This document shows, in pieces, positions 1 through 10,568 of a stretch of DNA of 10,568 bases. This DNA is from Thermomicrobiales bacterium. Its GTDB lineage: Bacteria > Chloroflexota > Chloroflexia > Thermomicrobiales > UBA6265. The DNA lies in NCBI GenBank assembly GCA_025928535.1, contig JAICJJ010000050.1, positions 1 to 10,568 of the forward strand, in the 5' to 3' direction. How positions within the stretch are numbered: position 1 is the first letter of the stretch; each line of letters begins with the position of its first letter. Under the pieces are notes generated by a model. The model saw only the letters and a program-made list of their open reading frames with translations. It was not told the DNA's origin and did not search any database. A program made the position numbers and the translations under genes.

Positions 1-7
1 AACCGAC

Positions 8-37
8 TTGACGCCGATGGCGGGCCGCCGGTATGCT
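8..37 (+). promoter_or_regulatory. Probable sigma-70-type promoter of the FMN riboswitch operon
   Basis: TTGACG (8-13, five of six consensus positions) is followed after an 18-nt spacer by TATGCT (32-37, four of six). Transcription would start near 44-46, just ahead of the riboswitch P1 stem at 52, which is where it should start for the aptamer to be the first structure made. The same stretch contains a 7-bp inverted repeat (11-17 with 40-46, ACGCCGA/TCGGCGT). That repeat could instead belong to the end of an upstream gene or be an operator. No experimental support can be read from sequence alone. Confidence 0.6.
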
Positions 38-51
38 TGTCGGCGTAGAGA

Positions 52-193
52 GCCTTCGGGGCATGGTGCGTCCGGACGTGGTTTCCGGCCAATTCCAGAC
101 CGGCGGTAAAGCCCGCGAGCGAGCGCGCGACGTCGCGCAAGCATGATCCGGTGCGATTCCGGAGCCGACGGTACAGTCCGGATGGGAGAAGGC
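52..193 (+). ncRNA. FMN riboswitch (RFN element)
   Basis: This is a clear RFN aptamer that senses flavin mononucleotide and normally shuts off downstream genes when FMN is plentiful. Visible landmarks in order are P1 5' strand GCCTTC (52-57) within CTTCGGGGC (54-62), ACCGGCGGT (99-107), GCCCGCGAGC (111-120), a variable hairpin GCGCG/CGCGC (125-129/134-138), GATCCGG (145-151), GCCGACGGT (164-172) and AGTCCGGATGGGAGAAGG (175-192), whose GAAGGC (188-193) closes P1. An insertion with its own 5-bp hairpin (72-76/84-88) lies inside P2, between GGTG and AATTCCA. Elsewhere this family controls riboflavin synthesis or flavin transport genes. Here it precedes an ABC-permease/flavoenzyme operon. Confidence 0.96.
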
Positions 194-326
194 GTCCGCT
201 CGGCCGGCATGTCCGGCCGGGCTGATGTTGGCATCCTTCGCTCCCGCCACGCCCGTGGGCCGTCGCCCCGGGCGTCGTTGCGTCCGGGCCGCCTGAATCC
301 CGGCGCGGCCGGGCGCGGACCGTCGG
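194..326 (+). other. Riboswitch expression platform and leader before the first permease
   Basis: There are 133 nt between the aptamer and the first start codon. A perfect 7-bp hairpin immediately follows P1 (201-207 CGGCCGG with 213-219 CCGGCCG, loop 208-212). More GC-rich self-complementary stretches follow up to the start codon. No T-tract follows any hairpin, so a classical intrinsic terminator is not evident. Control could be at translation, by Rho, or through a terminator without a U-tract. The region before the start codon at 327 has no strong Shine-Dalgarno. A reading frame running through this area on the + strand is a shadow of the permease. Confidence 0.5.
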
Positions 327-1271
327 ATGCTGCGATTCATCCTGAGACGCATCGGCTACGCGGCGTTGGTCCTCTTCGGAGTGACCACGCTCGTCTTCAT
401 CCTGATCCATGTCTCGGGCGATCCGCTGGCCGGGCTCGTGCCGCCGGGGAGTTCGCCCGAGCAACTCGCCCAACTGCGGGTCGCCTACGGGCTCGATCGC
501 CCGCTGCCGGCGCAATACGTCACGTTTCTCGGCCGCGCCGTTCGAGGCGATTTCGGCGAATCGTGGCGGCAGGGGCGGCCGGCGCTGACGGTCGTGCTCG
601 AACGGCTGCCGGCGACGCTGGCGCTGGCAGGGGCGGCGACCGCGCTGGCGTCGATCGTCGGGATTGGGCTGGGCATCGCCGCCGGGTGGCGGTCGAGCGG
701 CGCGGTTGATCTCGCGGCGCGGCTCGTCGCGCTGGCCGGGCAGGCGATTCCCGGATTCTGGCTCGGGACGATCCTCATCGCCTATTTCGCGGCGAGGTTG
801 CATTGGCTGCCGTCGTCGGGGCTCGAAGGGCCGGCGTCGCTCGTCTTGCCGGCCGTCACTCTGGCCGCGTTGCCGGCGGCGGCGCTGACTCGACTGGTGC
901 GCGCCGGCCTGCGCGAAACGCGTCGCGCCGATTGGCTGCGAACCGCCCGGGCGAAAGGGTTGCCGGAAGACACGGTCTTGCGGCGGCACGCGCTGCGCAA
1001 CGCGCTGTTGCCGGCGCTGGCGTTCGTCGGCGTGCAAGCCGGGTTTTTGCTCGGCGGCGCGGTGGTCGTCGAATCGGTTTTCGCCTATCCCGGCATCGGA
1101 TTGCTCGCCCTGAACGCGGTCGCCGACCGCGATCTGCCGATCATCGAAGCGTTCGTCGCCTTGGTCGCGGTCACGATCGTCATCGTCGAAATCGGGGTCG
1201 AGGTCGCGGCCCGGCTGCTCGATCCGCGCCTGCGGATGGAAGCGGGCGTCGCGGCGGCGGGCGCGGTATGA
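327..1271 (+). CDS. ABC transporter permease, Opp/Dpp type (DppB-like)
   Basis: Integral membrane subunit (314 aa) of an oligopeptide/dipeptide/nickel-type importer, the first structural gene behind the FMN riboswitch. Family hallmarks are the N-terminal RRIGYAALVLFGVTTLVF membrane segment (about residues 8-29), the GLDRPLPAQY stretch, GDFGESW before the core domain, several further hydrophobic segments, and the cytoplasmic EAA loop (about 198-228, with ARAKGLPED and HALRNALLP) that docks on the ATPase. The C-terminus has the usual FAYPGIGLLALNAV and RDLPII motifs and ends with LLDPRLR. Length is normal for DppB. Its stop overlaps the next start (ATGA), indicating translational coupling. Substrate cannot be read from the permease. 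The riboswitch context suggests a flavin-related solute instead of peptides, but that is inference. Confidence 0.93.
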   Translation: MLRFILRRIGYAALVLFGVTTLVFILIHVSGDPLAGLVPPGSSPEQLAQLRVAYGLDRPLPAQYVTFLGRAVRGDFGESWRQGRPALTVVLERLPATLALAGAATALASIVGIGLGIAAGWRSSGAVDLAARLVALAGQAIPGFWLGTILIAYFAARLHWLPSSGLEGPASLVLPAVTLAALPAAALTRLVRAGLRETRRADWLRTARAKGLPEDTVLRRHALRNALLPALAFVGVQAGFLLGGAVVVESVFAYPGIGLLALNAVADRDLPIIEAFVALVAVTIVIVEIGVEVAARLLDPRLRMEAGVAAAGAV

Positions 1272-2158
1272 TCGCGACCGCCCGCCCGGCCGCTGGACGC
1301 AGCCTCACGACCATTCAGCGGCCAACCGCGCCTCGTCCAGCAATCCGGCGACGGCCAGCCTGGGGCGTCGGCGGGGCGATCGGGCTGGCGCTGACGTTGC
1401 TGCTGGTCGCCGTGGCGCTCGCCGGGCCGTGGCTGCCGCTCGACCCGGACCATCAGGCGCTGGCGCAGCGGCTGCGGCCGCCGGTCTGGGCAGGTGGATC
1501 GGCGGCGCATCCATTCGGGACCGACCAACTCGGGCGCGATCTGCTGGCTCGCGTCGTCGTCGGCGCGCGGATTTCGTTGCTCGTCGGCGTCGCGGCGACG
1601 CTCGGCGCCGGCGCCATCGGCGTCGGACTCGGGCTGGTGGCCGGATTCGTCGGCGGCCGCGTCGATGCCGCGATTTCGTGGTTGATCGATGTCCAGTTGG
1701 CTGTTCCCTTCGTGGTGACGGCGATCGCGTTGACGGCGGCGGTCGGGCGGGGGCTCGGCACGTTGCTCGCCACGCTGGCGCTGACCGGGTGGATCGCCTG
1801 CGCCCGGGTCGTCCGGCTGCAGGCGCGGGCGGCGCGGCGCGCGCCGTGGGCGGAAGCGGCGCGTTCGCTCGGGGCGAGCCCGGCGCGGGTGGCGATTCGC
1901 CACGTCTTGCCGAATCTGGCCGCGCCGATCCTCGTGCTGGCGACGCAACAGGTGGCGGCGATGATCCTCTACGAAGCGGCATTGAGTTATCTCGGGCTGG
2001 GCCTTGGCGGCAAGGCGATCACCTGGGGCGGCATGGTCGCGGGCGGCCGTGAAACGCTGCTGGTCGCGCCGTGGGTGTCGATCGTGCCGGGCGGCGCGAT
2101 CGCGCTGGCCGTGCTCGGGTTGAATCTGCTCGGGGATGCATTGATCGACCGGTCATGA
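1268..2158 (+). CDS. ABC transporter permease, Opp/Dpp type (DppC-like)
   Basis: Second membrane subunit (296 aa), partner of the preceding DppB-like protein. A basic, proline-rich N-terminus of about 36 residues precedes TM1. HPFGTDQLGRDLLARVVVGARISLLVGV is the diagnostic DppC signature. The EAA loop lies at about 194-220 (EAARSLGAS, RHVLPNL). The C-terminal part has YEAALSYLGLGL and WGGM before the last membrane segment. The ATG at 1268 overlaps the TGA of the upstream permease by four bases, which fixes the start well despite a longer open frame upstream. The SBP gene follows 26 nt later. No ATPase gene (DppD/DppF) follows, so the transporter must borrow ATPases encoded elsewhere or upstream of this window. 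Confidence 0.93.
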   Translation: MIATARPAAGRSLTTIQRPTAPRPAIRRRPAWGVGGAIGLALTLLLVAVALAGPWLPLDPDHQALAQRLRPPVWAGGSAAHPFGTDQLGRDLLARVVVGARISLLVGVAATLGAGAIGVGLGLVAGFVGGRVDAAISWLIDVQLAVPFVVTAIALTAAVGRGLGTLLATLALTGWIACARVVRLQARAARRAPWAEAARSLGASPARVAIRHVLPNLAAPILVLATQQVAAMILYEAALSYLGLGLGGKAITWGGMVAGGRETLLVAPWVSIVPGGAIALAVLGLNLLGDALIDRS

Positions 2159-2184
2159 CCGGCGGCGCGTGCGAAGGAGGAGCG

Positions 2185-3732
2185 ATGAACGAGGTGTTGG
2201 TGCGGCGGGCGACCCGGCGCGGGCTGCTTGGCGGGATTGGCGCGGGCGCGCTCGCGGCGGCGTTGCCGGCTCCATGGGCGCGGGCGCAGGCGACGCCGGC
2301 GTCGTCGGCGCCGTTGGCGGCGGCGATGACGATCGACCTGGCGGCCGAACCGCCGACGCTCGATCCCGCCCTCGTCTACGACAACGACGGCTGGTCGGTG
2401 GTCCATTCGATCTACGATTCGCTCGTCCAGTACGGGCCGGGCGGCGATCTGCAGCCGCTGCTGGCGGAATCGCTGACGCCGCTCGATCCGACCACCTACG
2501 AAGTCGAATTGCGGCAGGGCATCACGTTTCACAACGGCGAACCGTTCGACGCGAGCGCGGTGTCGTTTTCGGTCGCCCACATTCTCGATCCGAAGACAAA
2601 ATCGCAGGTGGCGCAAAATTTCGCCGTCATCGAAAAGGTCGAGGAGATCGATCCGCACACCGTTCATTTGAAACTTTCCGCGACCGCGCCGTGGCTGCCG
2701 GGGCAGATAGCGGCTTGGCTTTGCATGTTGCCGCCAAAATACGCGGCGGACCCGGCCAACGATTTCGCCAACCGGCCGGTCGGAACCGGGCCGTATCGCT
2801 TCGTCAACTGGGAGCGGGGAGCCAAAGTCGAATTGGCGGCCAACCCCGACTATCCGCGACTCAGTCCGAAAGGTCGGCCGACGTCCGGGAAGGTCGCGTT
2901 CCGGTTCGTGCCGGAAGGGAGCACGCGGGTGTCCGACCTGCTGGCGGGCACGGCCGATCTGATCCGGAGTGTCCCGGTGGACCAAGTGTCGGCGGTGGCG
3001 CAAGCGGGCGAGGTGATCACCGAGCCGATCTCCGGATCGGCCTGGGTGCGGATCGCGACCGACGTCACGCCGTTCGACGACGTTCGGGTGCGGCAGGCGC
3101 TCAACTACGCGATCGACGTCGACAGCATCGTCCAGGCGCTGCTCGGCGGCAAAGGTCAGCGGCTGCCGAACTTTTTCGTGCCGGGCGGCCTCGGCTACGA
3201 TCCGGCGCTCAAGCCGTATCCGTACGATGTCGACCAGGCGAAAGCGTTGCTCGCCGCGGCCGGACATGGCGACGGCTTCGACACGCAACTTTCGGTCACG
3301 ACGGCGGAACGGCTCGACATCGCGCAGGCGATCGCCGGGCAACTGGCCGATGTCGGCATCCGGGCGGAGGTGATGCCGACCGAGACGGCGACGTTCAACG
3401 CCACGTGGACCGACAAATCGTCGCCGCCGTTGCGCTTCGCGACCTGGCGGCCGATGTTCGATCCCTACACCTTGCTCAGCCTCGTCGTTGCCGACAAGGG
3501 ATACCTCTCCCGGTACGACAATCCGAACGCCGAGCCGCTCCTGCAGGCGGGGGCGACCGAGCCGAATCCGGACAACCGGGCCAAGACCTACCGGGAACTC
3601 GGCAAAATCTTGCGCGACGACCCGGCCGCCATCTATCTCTACCGCCTGACGTCGCTCTATGGTCTTCGGAAAGGCGCGCCGCGCTGGACGCCCCGACCGG
3701 ACGACTACATCATCCCGACCGTGGTCGAGTAG
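2185..3732 (+). CDS. Family 5 extracellular solute-binding protein, Tat-exported
   Basis: Substrate-capture component (515 aa) of the Opp/Dpp-like importer, family SBP_bac_5. The N-terminus carries RR pairs (7-8, 11-12), then GLLGGIGAGALAAALPAPWARA with a likely AxA cleavage after about residue 34, resembling a Tat signal. There is no lipobox cysteine. The mature part shows the family opening (EPPTLDPALVYDNDGW, IYDSLVQY), the PLLAESL and LRQGITFHNGEPFDASAV motifs and NRPVGTGPYRFVNWERG. Length is typical. Start choice: a strong AAGGAGG (2174-2180) precedes ATG 2185. An in-frame ATG at 2155 overlaps the permease stop but lacks such a site and would add 10 residues before the signal. The ligand is unknown, and FMN-riboswitch control makes a flavin, its precursor or a conjugate a reasonable hypothesis. 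Confidence 0.93.
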   Translation: MNEVLVRRATRRGLLGGIGAGALAAALPAPWARAQATPASSAPLAAAMTIDLAAEPPTLDPALVYDNDGWSVVHSIYDSLVQYGPGGDLQPLLAESLTPLDPTTYEVELRQGITFHNGEPFDASAVSFSVAHILDPKTKSQVAQNFAVIEKVEEIDPHTVHLKLSATAPWLPGQIAAWLCMLPPKYAADPANDFANRPVGTGPYRFVNWERGAKVELAANPDYPRLSPKGRPTSGKVAFRFVPEGSTRVSDLLAGTADLIRSVPVDQVSAVAQAGEVITEPISGSAWVRIATDVTPFDDVRVRQALNYAIDVDSIVQALLGGKGQRLPNFFVPGGLGYDPALKPYPYDVDQAKALLAAAGHGDGFDTQLSVTTAERLDIAQAIAGQLADVGIRAEVMPTETATFNATWTDKSSPPLRFATWRPMFDPYTLLSLVVADKGYLSRYDNPNAEPLLQAGATEPNPDNRAKTYRELGKILRDDPAAIYLYRLTSLYGLRKGAPRWTPRPDDYIIPTVVE

Positions 3733-3737
3733 GAGAC

Positions 3738-4823
3738 ATGACCGAATCGAAGCCCGCCGTCGATCCGGCCGATCTGGCGTTCATCCGCGAGCGCCGGGTC
3801 GGCCACCTCGCCACGGCCGACGAAGACGGAGCGCCGTCGGTCGTCCCGGTCTGCTACGCGCTGATCGAGGACGTCGGCGGGGCGACGATCGTGACGCCGC
3901 TCGACGCCAAACCGAAGACGGTCGACTGGCGGAGCCTGCGACGCGTGCGCAACATCGCGGCCCGGCCCAAGGTCAGTTTCGTCGTCGACGACTACGTCGA
4001 AGATTGGTCGCGGCTCGCCTGGGTTCTGGTTCGTGGGCGGGCACGATTGGTCGAACCCGCGACGCCGCCGCACGCCGATGCCGTCGCGGCGCTGCGGGCG
4101 AAATATCCGCAGTATCGGGCGATGCCGCTGGATGACCTTCCGGTAATTGCCATCGAGCCGCGCGCGATCCGTTCCTGGCGATTCGGCGGCGCAGCCGGCG
4201 CGTCCGCGCGGCCGGGCGGGCCGGAACTGGCGGCGCTGGTCCGGGGCCGGCGGTCGGTGCGGGCGTTTCGCGCCGACCCCGTGCCCCGGCCGATCGTCGA
4301 GCGGGCGATCGAAGCCGCGGGATGGGCGCCGTCGCCGCACGGCCGGCAGCCCTGGCGTTTCGCCGTCGTCGAGGCGCCGGAACGGCGGGCGGCGCTGGCC
4401 GGCGCGATGGCGGCGACCTGGCGGGAGCAACTGAATCTCGACGGGCAAGACGCCGCGATCGTGCAGCACCGTCTCAACCAGAGCCGGGAACGGCTGCACA
4501 CCGCTCCCGTCCTGATCGTGCCCTGCCTCTACCTGTCCGATCTCGACCGCTATCCCGACGCCGGACGGCAGGCGGCCGAAGAGATCATGGCGATTCAGAG
4601 TCTCGGCGCGGCCGTGCAAAATCTCCTGTTGTCGCTCTACGCCGGCGGCGTCGATGGCGGCTGGATGTGCGCGCCCCTCTTTTGTCCCGAGGTCGTCCGC
4701 GACGCGCTCGGCCTCGCGCCCGAACTGATCCCCCACGCCCTGATCGCTGTCGGCTACGCCGCGCGCGATCCCGTCCGCCGGCCGCGTCTGCCGCTCGAGC
4801 AACTGATCGTTTCCTGGGAATGA
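3738..4823 (+). CDS. Fusion of PPOX-class F420/FMN-binding domain and nitroreductase (FbiB C-terminal-like)
   Basis: Two-domain flavoenzyme (361 aa). Residues about 8-150 match the Rv0121-type PPOX family (probable F420-dependent split-barrel proteins): RRVGHLATADEDGAPSVVPV, LDAKPK (55-60), LRRVRNIAARPKVSFVVDDY, EDWSRLAWV, KYPQYR (122-127) and the terminal RSWRF. After a short Ala/Gly linker, residues about 163-361 form a nitroreductase domain with RRSVRAF (171-177), APSPHGRQPWRF (197-208), and a closing GYAARDP plus PLEQLI. The RRSVR and APSPHG motifs resemble the C-terminal FMN domain of FbiB, which reduces dehydro-F420-0. No F420-ligase domain is present. The gene starts 5 nt after the SBP stop behind AGGAG, so it is in the riboswitch operon. 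The actual reaction is unknown. Both domains bind flavin-type cofactors. Confidence 0.88.
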   Translation: MTESKPAVDPADLAFIRERRVGHLATADEDGAPSVVPVCYALIEDVGGATIVTPLDAKPKTVDWRSLRRVRNIAARPKVSFVVDDYVEDWSRLAWVLVRGRARLVEPATPPHADAVAALRAKYPQYRAMPLDDLPVIAIEPRAIRSWRFGGAAGASARPGGPELAALVRGRRSVRAFRADPVPRPIVERAIEAAGWAPSPHGRQPWRFAVVEAPERRAALAGAMAATWREQLNLDGQDAAIVQHRLNQSRERLHTAPVLIVPCLYLSDLDRYPDAGRQAAEEIMAIQSLGAAVQNLLLSLYAGGVDGGWMCAPLFCPEVVRDALGLAPELIPHALIAVGYAARDPVRRPRLPLEQLIVSWE

Positions 4824-4832
4824 ACGCGCCGC

Positions 4833-6101
4833 TCAGCCGGCGACGCCGCACCACTCCAGCATGAAGGCGCCGATCGTCTTCGCGGTCGGGACCATCGAGG
4901 CGAGGTCGAGCCATTCGTCAGCAGCGTGTCCCCCCGCGCCGCCCGCGCCGAAGCAGCCGGAAGGAATGCCGACGAAGTTGAAATAGCGCATGTCGTTGAT
5001 GCCGGTGCCGGCGCGCGGTTCCATCTCGCCGCCCATCACGCGATGCTTCCATTTGGCGAGCATCCGCACCCACGGCTCGTCCATCGCGACGATCGATCCG
5101 GCGCTCTGGAAGCCGTCGTAGGTCACGACCGGCGGGTGGTCACGGAGCCAGGGATCGGCCGCGGCCGCTTCGGCGATGGCCGCTTCGATCGCGGCGCGGG
5201 TTTCGGCGATCGTCTGGCCGGGATAGAGGCTGAGCCGGCAATGCAATTCGCAATGTCCCGGCACCGTGCTCGGCCAGTCGCCGCCCTCGATGACGCCGAT
5301 GTTGAGATTGATCGGATGCTCGACTCCGGCGAACGTGGGATGGGTCTGCTCGTTGAGACGCGCGTCAAGACGCTGCAACGCGTCGATCACCGGCACGGCC
5401 TTGACGATCGCGTTGACCCCTTTCCAGGCTTGCATCGCGTGCCAAGAGACGCCTTCGATGGCGACCCGGAACCAGAGGACGCCGACGTGGGCGCTGGTGA
5501 AGGCGCCGCCGGTCGGTTCGGTGACGAGCGCGGCGTCGGCCCGGTAGCGGAGGCTGGCGTCGAGCGCGCCATTGCCGGTGCATTCTTCTTCGATCACGCT
5601 CTGGACGACGACGTCGCCGCCGAGCGTGATGCCGAGGTCGCGGATGAGGCGGGGCAGGAAGAGGTTGAGGGCGACGCCGCTTTTCATGTCGTAGGCGCCG
5701 CGGCCGTACATCTTGTCATCGACGATCTCCGCGCCCCACGGATCGTGCGTCCAGGCGCTGACCGGCTCCGGGCTGACGACATCGTAGTGCCCGTTCAGAA
5801 TCAGTGAGCGCCCGCCGCCGGCGCCCGGCAACGTGCCGGCGACGTTCGGCCGCCCGGCGAACGGCACGCCGCTGTCGCCGGCGTTTTCGCGCTGCTTCAG
5901 ATCGTCCGGAATGTCCCACGATTCGGCCTGCAGGCCCGATTCGGCCAGATAGCCTTCGACGAAGCCTTGGGCAGGCGCTTCGTCGCCGAGCAGGCTCGGA
6001 ATGCGGACGAGGTCGGCGACGAGCGCCGTCAATTCATCCTGGCGCTCCTCGATCGCCTGCCAGAGCCGTTGGGTCGCGTCGGTTGTCGCCTTGTCGCTCA
6101 C
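4833..6101 (-). CDS. M20-family metallohydrolase (ArgE/DapE/ACY1-type deacylase)
   Basis: Zinc-dependent amidohydrolase (422 aa) related to acetylornithine deacetylase and succinyl-diaminopimelate desuccinylase. The metal/catalytic set is visible: GHYDVV (H105, D107), YGRGAYDMKSG (D138 bridging), EEECTGNGALD (catalytic and metal glutamates within 171-173), E195 in EPT, and H392 in GGHAADEW. The dimerisation (lid) domain lies between about 200 and 320. The substrate is undetermined, and the family covers N-acyl amino acids and related amides. The start is GTG 6101, because a near-consensus promoter lies at 6142-6170 and GAGGAGAC at 6111-6118. The open frame continues upstream to 6278, but through repeat sequence and without homology. 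It converges with the riboswitch operon, leaving a 9-bp gap and no visible terminator. Confidence 0.9.
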   Translation of the reverse strand: MSDKATTDATQRLWQAIEERQDELTALVADLVRIPSLLGDEAPAQGFVEGYLAESGLQAESWDIPDDLKQRENAGDSGVPFAGRPNVAGTLPGAGGGRSLILNGHYDVVSPEPVSAWTHDPWGAEIVDDKMYGRGAYDMKSGVALNLFLPRLIRDLGITLGGDVVVQSVIEEECTGNGALDASLRYRADAALVTEPTGGAFTSAHVGVLWFRVAIEGVSWHAMQAWKGVNAIVKAVPVIDALQRLDARLNEQTHPTFAGVEHPINLNIGVIEGGDWPSTVPGHCELHCRLSLYPGQTIAETRAAIEAAIAEAAAADPWLRDHPPVVTYDGFQSAGSIVAMDEPWVRMLAKWKHRVMGGEMEPRAGTGINDMRYFNFVGIPSGCFGAGGAGGHAADEWLDLASMVPTAKTIGAFMLEWCGVAG

Positions 6102-6141
6102 GATTGATCCGTCTCCTCGAATGCGGTCGATTCGGGTTGGA

Positions 6142-6170
6142 ATCAGACCGTGCCGGCGGCGGTCTGTCAA
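6142..6170 (-). promoter_or_regulatory. Promoter of the M20 hydrolase gene
   Basis: Read on the minus strand, a perfect TTGACA (6165-6170) is followed by a 17-nt spacer and TCTGAT (6142-6147, four of six). The predicted transcript starts near 6135, leaving a leader of about 35 nt that includes the GAGGAGAC ribosome site (6111-6118) before GTG 6101. This argues that the hydrolase is not translated from the longer upstream frame and can be transcribed independently of the upstream SDR gene. Confidence 0.7.
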
Positions 6171-6177
6171 TTGCCGA

Positions 6178-6209
6178 AGTCGGGGAGCCGAGGAGTCGGG
6201 AAGTCGGGA
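6178..6209. repeat. Short tandem array of an 8-nt G-rich repeat (left copy)
   Basis: Four consecutive 8-nt units: AGTCGGGG, AGCCGAGG, AGTCGGGA, AGTCGGGA, then a decayed AGACTTGA. It mirrors the right-hand array at 6335-6374 in reverse orientation, with the palindromic element between them. It is non-coding, though it lies within an open-frame extension upstream of the M20 start. Confidence 0.8.
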
Positions 6210-6234
6210 AGACTTGAAGCGGCGCGTCGCCCTC

Positions 6235-6316
6235 ATCGTCATGTCGAGCCTGTCGAGGCATCTCGTCTCTGTATCCAAGAACGACGAGATCCTTTGTCTT
6301 CGTTCAGGATGACGAT
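6235..6316. repeat. 82-bp imperfect palindromic element (REP/MITE-like)
   Basis: Outer arms ATCGTCAT (6235-6242) and ATGACGAT (6309-6316) are perfect 8-nt inverted repeats. Inner arms ATCTCGTC (6260-6267) and GACGAGAT (6283-6290) are another perfect 8-nt pair around a 15-nt loop. Between them the arms are related but diverged: CATGTCGAGCCTGTCGAGG on the left, and on the right AGGATCTTT-type sequence with CGTTCAGGATGACG. The pattern resembles dispersed intergenic palindromes found in many GC-rich genomes. No transposase is present. It could also act as a transcript-end or stabilising structure between the SDR and M20 genes. Copy number cannot be judged from one window. Confidence 0.65.
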
Positions 6317-6334
6317 CCGCGCAGCGCCGTCTCC

Positions 6335-6374
6335 ACTCCCCGACTTCTCGACTTCCCGACTCCCCGACTCCCCG
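6335..6374. repeat. Short tandem array of an 8-nt repeat (right copy, inverted)
   Basis: Five 8-nt units: ACTCCCCG, ACTTCTCG, ACTTCCCG, ACTCCCCG, ACTCCCCG. The reverse complement is the AGTCGGGG-type unit of the left array, so the two arrays form a large inverted pair around the 82-bp palindrome. It ends seven bases before the SDR stop codon. Confidence 0.85.
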
Positions 6375-6380
6375 ACTCGT

Positions 6381-7160
6381 TCACCCTGGCACGTTGCCGC
6401 CGTCGACGTTCAGCGTTTGCTGCGTAATGTAGTCGGCGTCGGCGGAGGCAAGGAAGGCGGCGGCGGCAGCGATGTCTTCCGGTTGCTCGATTCGGCCGAG
6501 CGGGATCGCGGCGACGGCGCGGCGTTTGGCGGCGCCGGGCTCGAGTCCTTCGTAGCGGGCGAATTCGCTATCGACGACGTCCCACATCGGGGTGTCGACG
6601 ATGCCGGGCGCGATCGCGTTGACGTTGATCTTGTGGGGCGCCAGCGCGAGCGCCATCGACTGCGTCATGCTGATGACCGCCGCCTTGCTGGCGCAATAGG
6701 CGAGGACAAGCGGCTCGCCGCGCCGTCCCGCTTGTGACGAGAGGTTGATGATCTTGCCGCCTTGTCCCTGGGCGATCATCTGACGCGCGGCGGCTTGGGC
6801 GCACCAAAGCGTGCCTTTGCAGTTGACGTCGAAATTGAAATCCCAGTCCGCGTTCGTGATGTCGAGAAATGGCTTCATGCGGAAGACGCCGGCGTTGTTG
6901 ACGAGGATGTCGAGCCGGCCGAAGCGGGCGACGGCGGCGTCGACCATCGCCTGGACCTGCTGCTGGTTGCGAACATCCACCTGCACGGCGAGCGCATCGC
7001 CGCCGTTGGCCGTGATTTCGCCGGCGAACGCGGTCGCTCCCTCCAGATTCATGTCGGCGACGACGACCTTCGCGCCTTCGCGGACGAAGCGTTCCACGAT
7101 CGCGCGGCCGATGCCGGACGCGCCGCCGGTGACGATGGCGACCTTGTTTTCGAGCCGCAT
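6381..7160 (-). CDS. SDR-family polyol dehydrogenase (sorbitol dehydrogenase, SmoS-like)
   Basis: NAD(P)-dependent short-chain dehydrogenase, 259 aa, normal for classical SDRs. It shows TGGASGIGR (residues 11-19) for the cofactor, D36 at the end of beta-2 (favouring NAD), NNAG (88-91), N113, S142, and Y155-x3-K159 as the catalytic residues. The segment KIINLSSQAGRRGEPLV, then YCASKAAVIS, INVNAIAPGIVDTPMWD and the C-terminal YNVDGGN-like TLNVDGGN closely resemble bacterial sorbitol/L-iditol 2-dehydrogenases, so a hexitol or related polyol is the likely substrate. Exact specificity is uncertain. ATG 7160 is preceded by GGAGG (7168-7172) at good spacing. A longer frame to 7217 has no such support. 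The neighbouring M20 gene lies downstream on the same strand but across a 279-nt repeat-containing gap with its own promoter. Confidence 0.93.
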   Translation of the reverse strand: MRLENKVAIVTGGASGIGRAIVERFVREGAKVVVADMNLEGATAFAGEITANGGDALAVQVDVRNQQQVQAMVDAAVARFGRLDILVNNAGVFRMKPFLDITNADWDFNFDVNCKGTLWCAQAAARQMIAQGQGGKIINLSSQAGRRGEPLVLAYCASKAAVISMTQSMALALAPHKINVNAIAPGIVDTPMWDVVDSEFARYEGLEPGAAKRRAVAAIPLGRIEQPEDIAAAAAFLASADADYITQQTLNVDGGNVPG

Positions 7161-7427
7161 TTGAGTTCCTCCGTTCTGGCCGACTGCCGCTGATGATAAC
7201 GGCGACAGGCGTGACAAAAGGTGGAATATTTCCTGCCCTAACGGGCCACGACTGTTCGTGCAAGTTTAGTGGACCGATCGTACCCGACGTAGAGGAGACC
7301 CATGGAGGTGCGGCCGCGCTCCGCCGATTGCGGCGGCGTGGCTTGGGCGCTACGATGCAGTCGAGGCATGGACGCTTGGGCAGCGCGCCGATTCTGTGGT
7401 CATGCTCGCGTTGCGAGGAGGAGTGGG
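7161..7427. other. Intergenic control region between divergent SDR and wHTH-dGTPase genes
   Basis: The region contains the SDR ribosome site (7168-7172), a short inverted repeat GCCC-TAAC-GGGC (7235-7246), an AT-richer patch around 7213-7232, and a perfect 6-bp inverted repeat CCGCCG-ATTG-CGGCGG (7321-7336). An ATG at 7302 has a fair ribosome site (AGAGGAGA, 7291-7298) and is in frame with the small gene downstream. The 42 residues it would add look like random GC-rich translation, so I treat it as non-coding. Base composition starts to fall here, marking the left edge of the less GC-rich block. Confidence 0.5.
7328..7356 (+). promoter_or_regulatory. Tentative promoter of the wHTH-dGTPase pair, overlapping an inverted repeat
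   Basis: TTGCGG (7328-7333) and TACGAT (7351-7356) are separated by 17 nt. The -35 hexamer overlaps the inverted repeat CCGCCG-ATTG-CGGCGG (7321-7336). A transcript starting near 7363 would give a leader of about 65 nt to the ATG at 7428. The hexamers match consensus only moderately, so this is a candidate. The overlap suggests an operator, possibly for the small helix-turn-helix-like protein encoded next. Confidence 0.4.
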
Positions 7428-7673
7428 ATGGTTCTCACTGACGAAGAGTTGACGCGGGCTGAGGAGCAGGTTTTGTCGCTTCTCCAAGAGTTGCCGGCTC
7501 CCGCTTCGCCGTTGCTCGTCATCAACCGGCTGAAAGATGAAAACCTCGCTGAACCTCTCATTCGTGCCGCCATTTGGTACCTCATCGATCGGAATGCGGT
7601 GCAGTTGACATGGGATCGTCGGCTGAAACCGGCGAGGACGTTTGACGTTCCCGGCGCTCTTTCTGGTCGGTGA
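7428..7673 (+). CDS. Small winged-helix-like protein coupled to dGTPase
   Basis: Unrecognised small protein, 81 aa, soluble and charged. It has a predicted helix EELTRAEEQVLSLLQEL (about 5-21), a turn with PAPASPLL, a second helical stretch with LAEPLIRAAIWYLIDRNAV (about 39-57), then a short beta-type segment VQLTWDRRLKPAR that reads like the wing of a winged helix-turn-helix fold. This is judged by eye, with no family match claimed. The start at ATG 7428 is preceded by GAGGAGG. An upstream in-frame ATG (7302) would add an unlikely 42-residue extension. Its TGA overlaps the GTG start of the dGTPase (GTGA), so the two are translationally coupled. It may be a regulator of the operon or a partner subunit. 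Confidence 0.8.
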   Translation: MVLTDEELTRAEEQVLSLLQELPAPASPLLVINRLKDENLAEPLIRAAIWYLIDRNAVQLTWDRRLKPARTFDVPGALSGR

Positions 7674-9037
7674 GCGAGCGATTCGACCGCTACCATTCGT
7701 CACACACCGACAATCCTGACGACCGGCGATCGGCTGGCCGTCGAGACCGCGACCGGATTCTCTACTCGTCCGCATTCCGGCGCCTGTCCGGCATCACGCA
7801 GGTGGTTTCGGCAACGGATCGCCATCCGATTCACAATCGACTCACCCATACGTTGGAGGTCGCCCAAATTGGGCGAAGTCTGGCGGAGGAGTTGCTGCGG
7901 TCCGGAATCGATGAAAAACGGATTGCGGAACTCGGCGGTCTCGATCCGGACGTCGTCGAAGCCGCCTGTCTTGCCCACGACCTCGGCCATCCACCCTTCG
8001 GTCACGTTGCAGAGGAAGAACTTGATCGACTGGCAACGGAGCGTGGGGTCGTCGATGGCTTCGAGGGAAATGCGCAGACCTTTCGAATTCTGACGCGATT
8101 GGCCGTTCGGTATCGGGATGTTGCTGGTCTCAATCTCACGCGCGCGACGCTCTGCGCGGTGCTGAAATATCCTTGGCTGAGAGGGGCTGAGGGTGATCGG
8201 GCGACGAAATGGGGAGCCTATTTGTCGGAGAAGGCGGAGTTTGATTTCGCTCGCCAACTACTCATGGAGCCCGGCGACGGCCGAAGCGTGGAAGCCGAAC
8301 TGATGGACTGGGCTGACGACGTGGCCTATGCCGTGCATGATGTCGAAGATTTTTATCGTGCCGGACTCATCCCTCTGGACAAAGTATCGACAGATCCATT
8401 CGAGCGTGACCGACTCATCGCGGCGGAACTCGAGCGCAACACCAAACTCAACGCATACGGGGCCGATAACCTCGCTCAGGCATTCAATGGTCTCATGGAA
8501 TTCTCGCCAATCTTCGAGCCGTACCGCGCGAGCGCCGAGAGTCGTGCTCGACTCCGGAGTTTCACGTCAGCGTTGGTGGACCGCTACGTGAAAGCCGTCT
8601 CCCTTTCTCGTGATGGCGATGGAACAGAACGGCGCGGCCTTGTTGTCAAGCAAGAGGCCCGAATGGAAGTCGCGATGCTCAAAGGTCTGACGTGGCAATA
8701 CGTCATCGAGAGCCAATCTCTCATCACGCAGCGATACGGACAAACACGACTTGTCCGTTCCTTGTTCGAAACGCTCTGTGAGGCAGGAGCGTCAAGGAAT
8801 GATCGCAGAATTTTCCCTGAGTTTTATCGTGAGGCGATTGGTCAGTCTCCCGATGACGCCACCGTCGTTCGAACAGTTGTCGATCTGATATCGTCGATGA
8901 CCGAACCTCAGCTCGTTGCTCTGCAGCATCGCCTTTCCGGCGTCTCTTTGGGAGAGGCGCTCGATCCGATCTTGCCGTTGAGAGCATCAACCCGACATGG
9001 CTCGGCGATAGCGACGTGCAGTACCCTTGCCCCATGA
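7670..9037 (+). CDS. dgt: dGTPase-family HD-domain triphosphohydrolase
   Basis: Deoxynucleoside triphosphate triphosphohydrolase (455 aa), expected to cleave dGTP or other dNTPs to the nucleoside plus tripolyphosphate in the cytoplasm. It shows SAFRRLSGITQVV (34-46), NRLTHTLEVAQIGR with H60, LAHDLGHPPFGH with the HD pair H103-D104, FEGNAQTFRILTRL (131-144), LKYPW (165-169) and DWADDVAYAVHDVEDF (213-228) supplying the last metal aspartate. The four-residue H...HD...D set is intact. Length is within the family range. GTG 7670 overlaps the upstream stop by four bases. Codon use and GC (45-58% in sampled 60-nt lines) differ sharply from flanking genes (77% in a sampled line), suggesting horizontal acquisition. 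Related enzymes serve dNTP homeostasis or anti-phage dNTP depletion. Which applies here is open. Confidence 0.93.
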   Translation: MSERFDRYHSSHTDNPDDRRSAGRRDRDRILYSSAFRRLSGITQVVSATDRHPIHNRLTHTLEVAQIGRSLAEELLRSGIDEKRIAELGGLDPDVVEAACLAHDLGHPPFGHVAEEELDRLATERGVVDGFEGNAQTFRILTRLAVRYRDVAGLNLTRATLCAVLKYPWLRGAEGDRATKWGAYLSEKAEFDFARQLLMEPGDGRSVEAELMDWADDVAYAVHDVEDFYRAGLIPLDKVSTDPFERDRLIAAELERNTKLNAYGADNLAQAFNGLMEFSPIFEPYRASAESRARLRSFTSALVDRYVKAVSLSRDGDGTERRGLVVKQEARMEVAMLKGLTWQYVIESQSLITQRYGQTRLVRSLFETLCEAGASRNDRRIFPEFYREAIGQSPDDATVVRTVVDLISSMTEPQLVALQHRLSGVSLGEALDPILPLRASTRHGSAIATCSTLAP

Positions 9038-9056
9038 CGAATCGACCCAGGAACGG

Positions 9057-9587
9057 ATGGCGCGGATGAATCGCACTTCAGGCGGGTTGCGCCGGCTGAC
9101 GGCCGGCCGTATGCAGCGCCGGACGCTGCTCCAGGCGGCGCTCGGGGCGGGCGGGCTGGCGCTCGTCGGCTGCACGGCGCCGGGCGTCGCCGACCAGGGC
9201 GGCTTCGGCAGCACGGATCTCGTCGCCTGGCCGGCGAAAGACCAATGGCCGCAGATCTTCTGGAACGCGCCCGCCTCCGTGCAGGAGGTCTACCGCTACG
9301 CGGTCGCGCACGAAGACGAATTGAAGTGGATGCCCTGTTTTTGCGGTTGCGTCAATCAGGGGCATCGCTACAACTTCGATTGCTACGTGACGGAGGCGCG
9401 CCCCGACGGGTCGGTCGTGCTCGACCCCATGAGCTTCGGCTGAGGGGTCTGCCTCGACGTCGCGCGGAGCGTGATGAAACTACGTCCAGAAGGCAAGACG
9501 CTGCGGGAGATCCGGGACTACGTCGACAAGACGTTCGCCGGAGTCGGCCCGCCGACGAACACGCCGATGCCGCCGGAAGGCGTCTAG
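9057..9587 (+). CDS. Putative selenocysteine-containing PCYCGC-family lipoprotein (in-frame TGA at 9441-9443)
   Basis: Secreted lipoprotein of unknown function, 176 aa if TGA codon 129 is read as selenocysteine. The N-terminus has a Tat/lipoprotein-like signal, QRRTLLQAALGAGG (20-33), with lipobox LVGC and lipidation Cys39. The family core follows: a short alpha-helical stretch, then WMPCFCGCVNQGHR (C94, C96, C98), a further Cys109 and DGSVVLDPMSFG. Family members normally continue with CGVC. Here the reading is TGA-GVC, followed by a fully conserved tail (LDVARSVMKLRPEGK, LREIRDYVDKTF) to TAG 9585. A hairpin with a GGA loop lies just after the TGA. The start could also be ATG 9066 or 9111. 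The alternative is a recent nonsense mutation that truncates the protein at 9443. The conserved frame, exact Cys replacement and hairpin favour Sec. Confidence 0.78.
9458..9476 (+). promoter_or_regulatory. Candidate bacterial SECIS hairpin
   Basis: CGUCGCGC-GGA-GCGUGAUG forms an uninterrupted 8-bp stem (six Watson-Crick pairs, two G-U) with a 3-nt loop beginning with G. The loop starts 22 nt after the UGA at 9441-9443. This fits the general bacterial SECIS description: an in-ORF stem-loop shortly downstream of UGA with G in the first two loop positions. A GC-rich gene will form many hairpins by chance, so this supports the Sec reading without proving it. A second small stem-loop, GAGG-GGUCUG-CCUC (9442-9455), sits directly on the UGA. 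Confidence 0.55.
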
Positions 9588-9664
9588 CCATCGATCAGCC
9601 GGGGCTCGCTTCCCTTGGGCCGCTGGTCGTCGATCGGTTCGCGCTGCCCGGCACGAACGAGGTG

Positions 9665-10318
9665 ATGTCGATCGTCCGGCCGGACGACATCGACCGGCTG
9701 CTCGACGGCGCGGCGGCCGATCCGGAGCAAAATCTTCCCTATTGGGCCGAATTGTGGCCGAGCGGCATTGCGCTGGCCGCAAGCATTGCCCGCGCGCCCG
9801 ACCTCGTTCGGAACGCGCGTTGCCTCGAACTCGGCTGCGGCCTCGGCGTGACGGCGGCCGCGGCGTTGCGGGCCGGCGCCGATCTGCTGGCGACCGACTA
9901 CGCGCCTGAAGCGCTGGCGCTTTGCCGCCACAACTGCCTCGTCAACGCCGGGCGCGCGCCGCGGACGCTGCACGTGAACTGGCGGCGGCCGACGCGGCTG
10001 CGGACGGCGGCCGGGCAGGGCTTCCCGGTCGTCCTGGCGGCAGACGTGCTCTATGAACGGCGCGACGTCGAACCGCTGCTCGCGCTGGTCGACTGGCTCG
10101 TCGCGCCGGGCGGCTTGCTCTGGCTGGCCGAGCCGGGGCGTCCGCCCGCCGCCGCGTTTCTCGAAGCGGCGACCGAACGCGGCTGGCGCGGCGCGTTCGA
10201 GGAAGTCGCCGGCCCATGGCCCGATCCGAACGACCGAGAAGTGATCGTTCGAGTGCACCGGCTGCGACGCGGGGCGAGCCGATCGCGGCCGGGACCGTTG
10301 CAATCATCCGTGGACTGA
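9665..10318 (+). CDS. Class I SAM-dependent methyltransferase (nicotinamide N-methyltransferase/METTL21-like)
   Basis: Cytoplasmic methyltransferase of Rossmann type, at least 217 aa. Counting from ATG 9665, it shows LPYWAELWPSGIALA (24-38), typical of this protein-/small-molecule-methyltransferase group, motif I CLELGCGLGVTAA (53-65), D78 ending strand 2, VVLAADVLYE (122-131) as motif IV, and APGGLLWLAEP. The substrate is unknown. The start is uncertain: sequence upstream in frame (LGPLVVDRFALPGTNEV) resembles the usual N-terminus of the family, yet no ATG or GTG lies in frame between the selenoprotein stop and 9662. A ribosome-site-like GGAAGG (9575-9580) precedes an in-frame ATC at 9590, and a CTG is at 9623. 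The true protein may therefore begin at a rare start codon near 9590-9623. It follows the selenoprotein closely and is probably co-transcribed. Confidence 0.85.
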   Translation: MSIVRPDDIDRLLDGAAADPEQNLPYWAELWPSGIALAASIARAPDLVRNARCLELGCGLGVTAAAALRAGADLLATDYAPEALALCRHNCLVNAGRAPRTLHVNWRRPTRLRTAAGQGFPVVLAADVLYERRDVEPLLALVDWLVAPGGLLWLAEPGRPPAAAFLEAATERGWRGAFEEVAGPWPDPNDREVIVRVHRLRRGASRSRPGPLQSSVD

Positions 10319-10440
10319 ATTGCGCCGGGCTGCACGGACTCCGCTCGGCCTGACGAACGAGACGCGGGCCGGTTCCGCGATGGGCGGTCCGGACCGATAA
10401 TCGCTTCCGCGACAATTGCTGAACACGGAGGAGAGCAACG

Positions 10441-10568
10441 GTGACGGGACAGCGCCCAGACGAGCGGCGAGCGCTCTGGATCTATCCGTGGGACATCCTC
10501 GACGCGGGCATCGACGCGACGGTGCGGCGCGCGGGGCATGAATGGCGGCTTTCGGCCCTCAGCCTCAC
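10441..10568 (+). CDS. N-terminal part of an unidentified gene (runs off the window)
   Basis: Partial frame of 42 codons, open to the window edge. GTG 10441 has an excellent ribosome site, GGAGGAG (10427-10433), with a 7-nt spacer. The protein begins with a short basic leader, then RALWIYPWDILDAGIDATVRRAG and HEWRLSALSL. The alternating hydrophobic strand (LWIYPWDIL) followed by an amphipathic helix resembles the first strand and helix of a TIM-barrel-type protein, but this is a guess from shape and I do not assign a function. A GATAAT at 10396-10401 could be its -10 element, though no good -35 sits upstream. The 122-nt gap before it otherwise shows nothing distinctive. Confidence 0.65.
   Translation, partial: MTGQRPDERRALWIYPWDILDAGIDATVRRAGHEWRLSALSL

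Follow-up and report, generated by a model that had tools for sequence, protein, structure and literature searches.

The window studied here is a stretch of 10,568 nucleotides of a Thermomicrobiales bacterium (assembly GCA_025928535.1, contig JAICJJ010000050.1, positions 1 to 10,568, forward strand). Near its 3′ end it carries a gene of the PCYCGC family (PF13798) that appears to encode a selenoprotein, in which an in-frame TGA would specify selenocysteine (Sec, U) and a hairpin resembling a selenocysteine insertion sequence (SECIS) follows that codon. The gene and its features are as follows.

9057–9587, plus strand: predicted PF13798 (PCYCGC) selenoprotein gene, TGA taken as Sec and TAG at 9585–9587 as stop (from the frame, the PF13798 match and the homologues)
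9117–9122, plus strand: twin arginine (RR) of a presumed signal peptide of the twin-arginine translocation (Tat) type, RRTLLQ (read from the sequence)
9162–9173, plus strand: lipobox-like LVGC, presumably with C39 as the lipidated residue (read from the sequence)
9333–9350, plus strand: PCFCGC motif with C94, C96 and C98, all three invariant in a 66-row alignment (A3)
9363–9365, plus strand: H103, invariant in the same alignment
9381–9383, plus strand: C109, likewise invariant
9429–9431, plus strand: M125, four residues before Sec, a position that is His in nearly all Cys forms (residue counts over distinct sequences)
9441–9443, plus strand: TGA codon for the predicted selenocysteine U129 (U, C and R counts in the aligned column)
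9450–9452, plus strand: C132, partner of Sec in the UxxC pair, invariant in A3
9458–9476, plus strand: SECIS-type hairpin, stem 9458–9464/9470–9476, loop 9465–9469 (CGGAG) (pairing counts, covariation and folding)

Between the ATG at 9057 and the terminal TAG, the frame contains a single TGA (residue 129), as the first-pass annotation of this DNA had stated, and reading through it yields a protein of 176 residues; ATG codons at 9066 and 9111 are further candidate starts. The whole read-through protein scores 108.4 bits against PF13798 (gathering cut-off, 25 bits), which makes it a member of that family, and it has the characteristic CxCxC, H, C, (C/U)xxC pattern. The halves before and after the TGA, scored alone, reach 54.7 and 39.1 bits; since each surpasses the cut-off, both are significantly PF13798 in one and the same frame, and the continuous family match earlier claimed for the two sides of the TGA is confirmed. 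Open reading frame (ORF) calling without recoding ends at the TGA; the product of 128 residues that had been foreseen for ordinary gene calling is obtained from the ATG at 9057, but the TTG at 9027 would give 138. Both neighbouring genes (7670–9037 and the frame ending at 10318) terminate at an ordinary TGA stop, which disfavours a genome-wide recoding of this triplet.

Amongst the window genome and its 60 nearest relatives, we found 18 PF13798 matches in 16 of the 61 genomes, and the aligned column is TGA in 15 of these homologues and Cys in three. The recurrence of TGA in the very same column rules out a chance origin. In a sample of the phylum, the family is present in 34 of 301 genomes: 38 places yielded 25 loci that could be aligned (five repeated earlier loci and eight were without a locus), and the 43 loci of both searches together specify 24 U, 18 C and 1 R in the Sec column. 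A scan of named genomes, in which the best 80 of 210 relatives were considered, returned 22 U, 56 C, 1 R (CGA, in L086) and one unassigned; L151, for which the motif script could not assign a residue, was dropped. The 43-locus and 80-locus sets overlap in some contigs. The Cys/UGA pair at codon 129 that the first-pass annotation had proposed to look for thus exists, and its placing of the TGA on a Cys position of ordinary PCYCGC proteins holds across many genomes; it is not the case that the relatives all carry TGC and one strain alone TGA. We found Sec forms in Thermomicrobium and other members of Chloroflexota/Thermomicrobiota, in Methylomirabilota, Rokubacteria and Bacillota, including two named records that are not metagenome-assembled genomes (MAGs), Thermomicrobium sp. 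CFH 73360 and Melghiribacillus thermohalophilus DSM 25894.

The distribution of U and C on a tree of 81 rows (43 of them U; 111 columns) requires eight changes between the two, at least four of which are forced by well-supported branches, with many forks unresolved. For this tree, repeats were dropped, the Cys rows of L100–L161 were thinned to one-third, and 10 of the 20 loci of the related OS_HP4 branch (see below) were included. Alicyclobacillaceae Bu37, a U row, has the C row Kyrpidia Bu79 as its sister. The Arg-specifying locus, L086 (6001–6339, on a contig shared with L073), is a close relative in which the Sec codon is CGA, one transition away from TGA; this possibly reflects Sec loss or an assembly error, and its genome (G265) has a selB over cut-off.

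A true stop followed by a decaying remnant, or a sequencing error, would be in keeping with the 128- or 138-residue ORF of standard calling and with the lack of detectable selA, selD and tRNA-Sec in the window MAG. It is hard to reconcile, however, with a TGA that recurs in 15 of the 18 homologues amongst the relatives and in 22 of the 80 named loci, two of these outside MAGs, nor does it fit a downstream part that matches PF13798 by itself and stays constrained. Against six relatives, the ratio of nonsynonymous to synonymous differences (pN/pS) is 0.26–0.51 for 36 codons preceding the TGA and 0.32–0.56 for 34 codons following it. The downstream part thus looks translated, and a decaying remnant is unlikely because the constraint persists there, about equal to that on the part before; the decay in TGA-bearing relatives that had been named as a possible refutation is not seen. 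We consider a stop or an error hardly credible. Pseudogenisation, a sequencing error and a general recoding of TGA were all rejected as candidates, on the conservation, the constraint and the ordinary TGA stops of the neighbouring genes.

The hairpin has a 7-bp stem, which begins 17 nt from the T of the TGA, and a 5-nt loop. All seven pairs are intact in 28 of the 34 distinct Sec sequences versus three of the 73 Cys sequences. In 500 synonymous-codon shuffles, the full stem appeared on average in 3.2 of the 34 Sec sequences (maximum 8) and in 1.6 of the Cys set (maximum 6), and the mean number of pairs in the Cys set equals its null mean (3.88 and 3.88). We rejected the idea that the hairpin is a by-product of protein constraint, given the 3.2 sequences of the synonymous null versus the 28 observed. 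In the alignment of the 34 Sec sequences, 96.6% of the hairpin cells are paired; double-sided changes occur in 20 cells, against a mean of 4.4 in the shuffles (uncorrected for relatedness), none of which reached as high a value in 500 trials. Such changes affect four of the seven pairs, a number attained by 50 of the 500 shuffles. When the partner strand was slid by one to three columns, pairing fell to 9–63%.

The model for bacterial SECIS elements (bSECIS), as described in PMC13188914, specifies a loop of 3–9 nt with a G in either of the first two loop positions, a distance of 16–37 nt from the UGA, an energy of −7.5 or lower and, in its strict form, an uninterrupted stem. The window hairpin fits this model, with G at the second loop position and a spacing of 21 nt (counted with the 5-nt loop) or 22 nt (as a triloop), and it passes the strict scan at −9.5 kcal/mol, as do 17 of the 34 Sec sequences, 19 of the 20 sequences of the OS_HP4 branch and three of the 73 Cys sequences. 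Folded as a short hairpin, the window sequence reaches −10.6 (z = −2.38).

As to the decoding machinery, the search that the first-pass annotation had called for succeeded in part. In the window genome, a 64% complete MAG of 646 contigs, SelB is encoded by a 662-amino-acid ORF (G000:C388; 317.2 bits, cut-off 242.25), so that the absence of selB, which had been named as a potential refutation, can be discounted; tRNA-Sec was not found, although near-complete relatives have it along with selA and selD. SelB exceeds the cut-off in 11 of the 13 TGA-bearing genomes amongst the 61, SelA in 11 and SelD in nine, and six of them (G022, G024, G033, G037, G040 and G042) combine all three proteins with a tRNA-Sec of more than 66 bits. 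In G028, G030, G052 and G058, the tRNA-Sec matches (47–49 bits) lie barely above the 47-bit cut-off and are doubtful. Of the two TGA-bearing genomes without SelB, G028 has SelA and G004 has SelD. Across the phylum, co-occurrence with SelB is hardly informative, because SelB is common there (234 of 301 genomes). Within Bacillota, SelB exceeds the cut-off in four of four Sec-form and one of nine Cys-form genomes (one-sided Fisher test, 9/1287 = 0.007, the completeness of the compared genomes not being given). We also observed that in most of the 43 relatives with a SelD over cut-off, the selD gene has an in-frame TGA of its own.

Some observations weigh against Sec decoding. SelA, SelD and tRNA-Sec all failed to exceed their cut-offs in the window MAG, and a chance loss of all three at 64% completeness is possible, albeit not the commonest outcome. 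Thirty of the named loci led to 29 genomes; amongst these, SelB passes the cut-off in eight of 12 with the Sec form but also in seven of 17 with the Cys form. Half of the Sec hairpins miss the strict published model, though the one in the window passes, and the fold of a 60-nt segment from the window is no better than that of shuffled sequences (z = −0.96).

As the evidence for Sec comes from sequence, one might suppose instead that a suppressor or an altered code makes UGA specify Trp, Gly or Cys. The neighbouring genes, however, use TGA as a normal stop, and the recoded codon pairs with Cys with the exception of one Arg; moreover, the TGA forms, unlike the Cys forms, retain a hairpin at the spacing of a SECIS, and selB co-occurs. 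Such non-Sec read-through is in our view very improbable. The Cys/TGA pairing, the covarying hairpin, the presence of SelB in the genome and the six TGA-bearing relatives with complete machinery make Sec decoding near-certain, and we estimate at about 0.93 the probability that 9057–9587 is a working selenoprotein gene in which UGA 9441–9443 is decoded as Sec. SelB, aided by the hairpin at 9458–9476, would insert the selenocysteine. This agrees with the initial proposal of a PCYCGC protein with Sec in place of Cys, which the Cys/UGA pairing, the downstream constraint, the covarying hairpin and selB all support.

The selenoprotein had been called overlooked, and this is true only in part. Table 1 of PMC13188914, a review of 2026, lists a “CYCXC family protein (hypothetical protein OS_HP4)” with PF13798 and UxxC, citing Zhang & Gladyshev 2007, and PMC9312934 likewise gives OS_HP4 as UxxC; NCBIfam has a corresponding model, NF041379 (OS_HP4_CYCXC, “CYCXC family (seleno)protein”). 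The window protein, however, scores 45 bits with NF041379, below the curated cut-off of 90 bits. A search of the phylum reached from L143, whose sole purpose was to position the OS_HP4 branch, found 35 of 95 genomes above this cut-off, and we examined 20 matching loci. All 20 have TGA at the same UxxC column, and in 19 of them a 7-bp hairpin follows, offset by 18 or 19 nt rather than the 17 of the window branch. OS_HP4 thus shares with the window protein the Pfam family, as given in the table of PMC13188914, and the Sec column, but its hairpin is shifted by 1–2 nt and has another loop, and it forms a separate branch of the tree.

The Sec position was therefore already known, while the Thermomicrobiales/Chloroflexota/Bacillota branch with its different hairpin is new. 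In the titles and abstract openings of the papers searched, nothing was found on this Sec branch of PCYCGC or on a copper role, and the terms sought for the PCYCGC/CYCXC family were not found in PMC12013277; the branch, like its possible connection with the assembly of copper proteins (see below), looks new. Since NF041379 scores the window protein below cut-off, proteins of this branch may well be annotated as truncated.

The predicted product is a PF13798 protein with Tat-like export, probably lipid-anchored, in which the invariant CxCxC…H…C cluster is joined by a U-x-x-C pair. In the aligned relatives, the lipobox column reads LVGC, LVAC or LAAC. A loosely defined RR pattern upstream of the domain occurs in 24 of the 34 distinct Sec sequences versus seven of the 73 Cys sequences (uncorrected for relatedness). 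Four residues before the Sec column, distinct sequences combine Met with Sec in 23 cases, His with Sec in 11, His with Cys in 72, and Met with Cys and Met with Arg in one each; the replacement of His by Met in Sec forms is possibly a change of metal ligand. At residue +8, encoded by the loop codon (CGT/CGG), Arg is found in all 34 Sec forms versus four of the 73 Cys forms, and it seems that the RNA hairpin dictates this amino acid. The Cys-form PCYCGC proteins of Bacillales and Anaerolineae share the invariant Cys and His positions with the window protein and differ from it by Cys in place of Sec and by the mostly absent hairpin, RR and Arg just described.

Directly 3′ of the PCYCGC gene lies a lysine-methyltransferase-like gene (PF10294; 9590–10318), perhaps with a non-ATG start, which is a constant neighbour in the window and its four closest relatives (L002–L005). 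More widely, we compared the neighbours at 128 PCYCGC loci, some of which are one contig fetched twice, with those at 31 control loci; each query's own source locus is in the counts, so that only recurrence at other loci carries weight. A cupredoxin gene adjoins at 18 of the 128 loci, a Fer4_5 membrane protein at 22, a TlpA-like protein at seven and a CcdA-like protein at five, each with none in the controls; P-type ATPases match at 11 loci (three of them weakly) and likewise at none of the controls. All 24 cupredoxin ORFs matched contain CxxxCxxxHxxM, the CuA motif, and at L095, L097, L098, L101, L102 and L108 a second ORF with C-x3-C-x3-H-x2-M lies further downstream of the first. In L050, the gene order is CcdA-like, TlpA-like (these two named by eye), CcmH, PCYCGC (Sec) and CuA cupredoxin with Fer4_5. 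L157 has a CsoR-like repressor with an HMA P-type ATPase, L094 a CtaG neighbour, and L093 CopC with DUF1775 (CopD being below cut-off). A pooled Pfam tally of 80 out of 95 picked neighbour ORFs, that of CsoR in L157 included, gave five ABC transporters, four AhpC/TSA, three cupredoxins and two FeoB_N; it is too mixed to help and is superseded by the 128-locus count.

These recurrent neighbours (CuA cupredoxins and, less often, TlpA, CcdA and P-type ATPases) led us to propose a role in the assembly or handling of copper sites. PCYCGC would act outside the cytoplasm as a thiol/selenol protein, reducing the cysteines of copper sites, for example of the CuA type, or passing copper to them, and might itself be re-reduced by a thiol relay of the CcdA-TlpA type; we put this forward tentatively, at less than even odds. 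The proposal also draws on Bradyrhizobium, where, according to PMC6696091, TlpA acts as the reductant of ScoI and of the CuA subunit. The proposed task and the types of neighbours (TlpA-like, CuA-type) are alike in the TlpA/ScoI/CoxB pathway described there, but a different protein family would take the copper/thiol step.

Several points weigh against the copper role, and the odds of it are lowered by the fact that CsoR, CtaG and ccmH recur at no other locus and that iron neighbours exist. CsoR, CtaG, DUF1775 and ccmH each occur at a single one of the 128 loci, most PCYCGC loci lack a cupredoxin neighbour, and no copper protein was found amongst the nine neighbour proteins scanned in the window, where, as in its four closest relatives, the methyltransferase gene is the constant neighbour. 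The controls cover 103 kb versus 1,018 kb, so that some two cupredoxin matches would be expected there at equal density. Iron genes too lie near some members: FeoB_N is found in two of the 80 tallied ORFs, and a Cys form of Parageobacillus adjoins an Fe3+ binding protein (PMC13068155).

Alternatively, Sec decoding may be right and the product may be a lipoprotein that binds or sequesters copper or iron through its CxCxC, H, C, M and UxxC ligands, instead of being a redox partner. The invariant Cys and His cluster is in line with such a role, as are the Met for His at −4 in 23 of the 34 Sec forms, the P-type ATPases at some loci, the CsoR-like repressor and CopC at single loci, and the iron neighbours mentioned above. 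UxxC and CxxC pairs, however, are typical redox motifs, and the TlpA-like and CcdA-like neighbours, at few loci, point to thiol exchange. We regard the metal-binding lipoprotein as a real possibility, at less than even odds.

The structure has less to say about function than the neighbours, though these are not decisive. The AlphaFold model is of good quality, with a mean pLDDT (predicted local distance difference test) of 84.4, but no clear relative of solved structure was found. Solved structures searched by profile yielded no significant match (best E = 0.011, a saposin), and no thioredoxin-named entry is present amongst the fold matches listed, which carries no weight either way. The fold search did return the N-terminal domain of CcmH as a weak match, and hhalign, in a comparison picked after that match, paired U/CxxC with the CPVC of CcmH (probability 29.9%, E = 5.6e-4). 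Both proteins have a CxxC followed by helices, with weak profile and fold similarity, but the consensus of CcmH (PF03918) is without the CxCxC cluster; PF03918 is matched weakly by four of 66 PCYCGC members, and no such match is listed for the window protein. The similarity is too weak to claim homology. A CcmH-like role would make PCYCGC a thiol reductase in the maturation of cytochrome c and not a copper factor; the signals for it are each weak, a neighbouring ccmH is seen at a single locus, no CcmH was found in the window genome, and the commonest recurrent neighbour carries the CuA motif. We deem a CcmH-like role improbable.

In its widest and most speculative form, which we hold to be rather unlikely as a whole, the copper proposal would make the PCYCGC proteins previously unnamed extracytoplasmic thiol/selenol factors for the assembly of CuA centres, fed by CcdA-TlpA. 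In lineages including Thermomicrobiales, the attacking Cys would have become Sec, the neighbouring His often Met and export Tat-dependent, with SECIS forms that differ by branch and fix the Arg.

At the level of the single gene, the analysis settles the identity of an ORF that plain calling truncates; at the level of the family, it reveals a wide branch, as the TGA forms amongst the named homologues attest. Two of these forms are in named, growable strains, a Thermomicrobium and a Melghiribacillus, and the sister rows of Bu37 (Sec) and Kyrpidia Bu79 (Cys) constitute a natural experiment on the reason for selenium use. Moreover, the recurrent CuA-type neighbours provide the family, listed as “unknown” by Pfam, with a function that can be tested.
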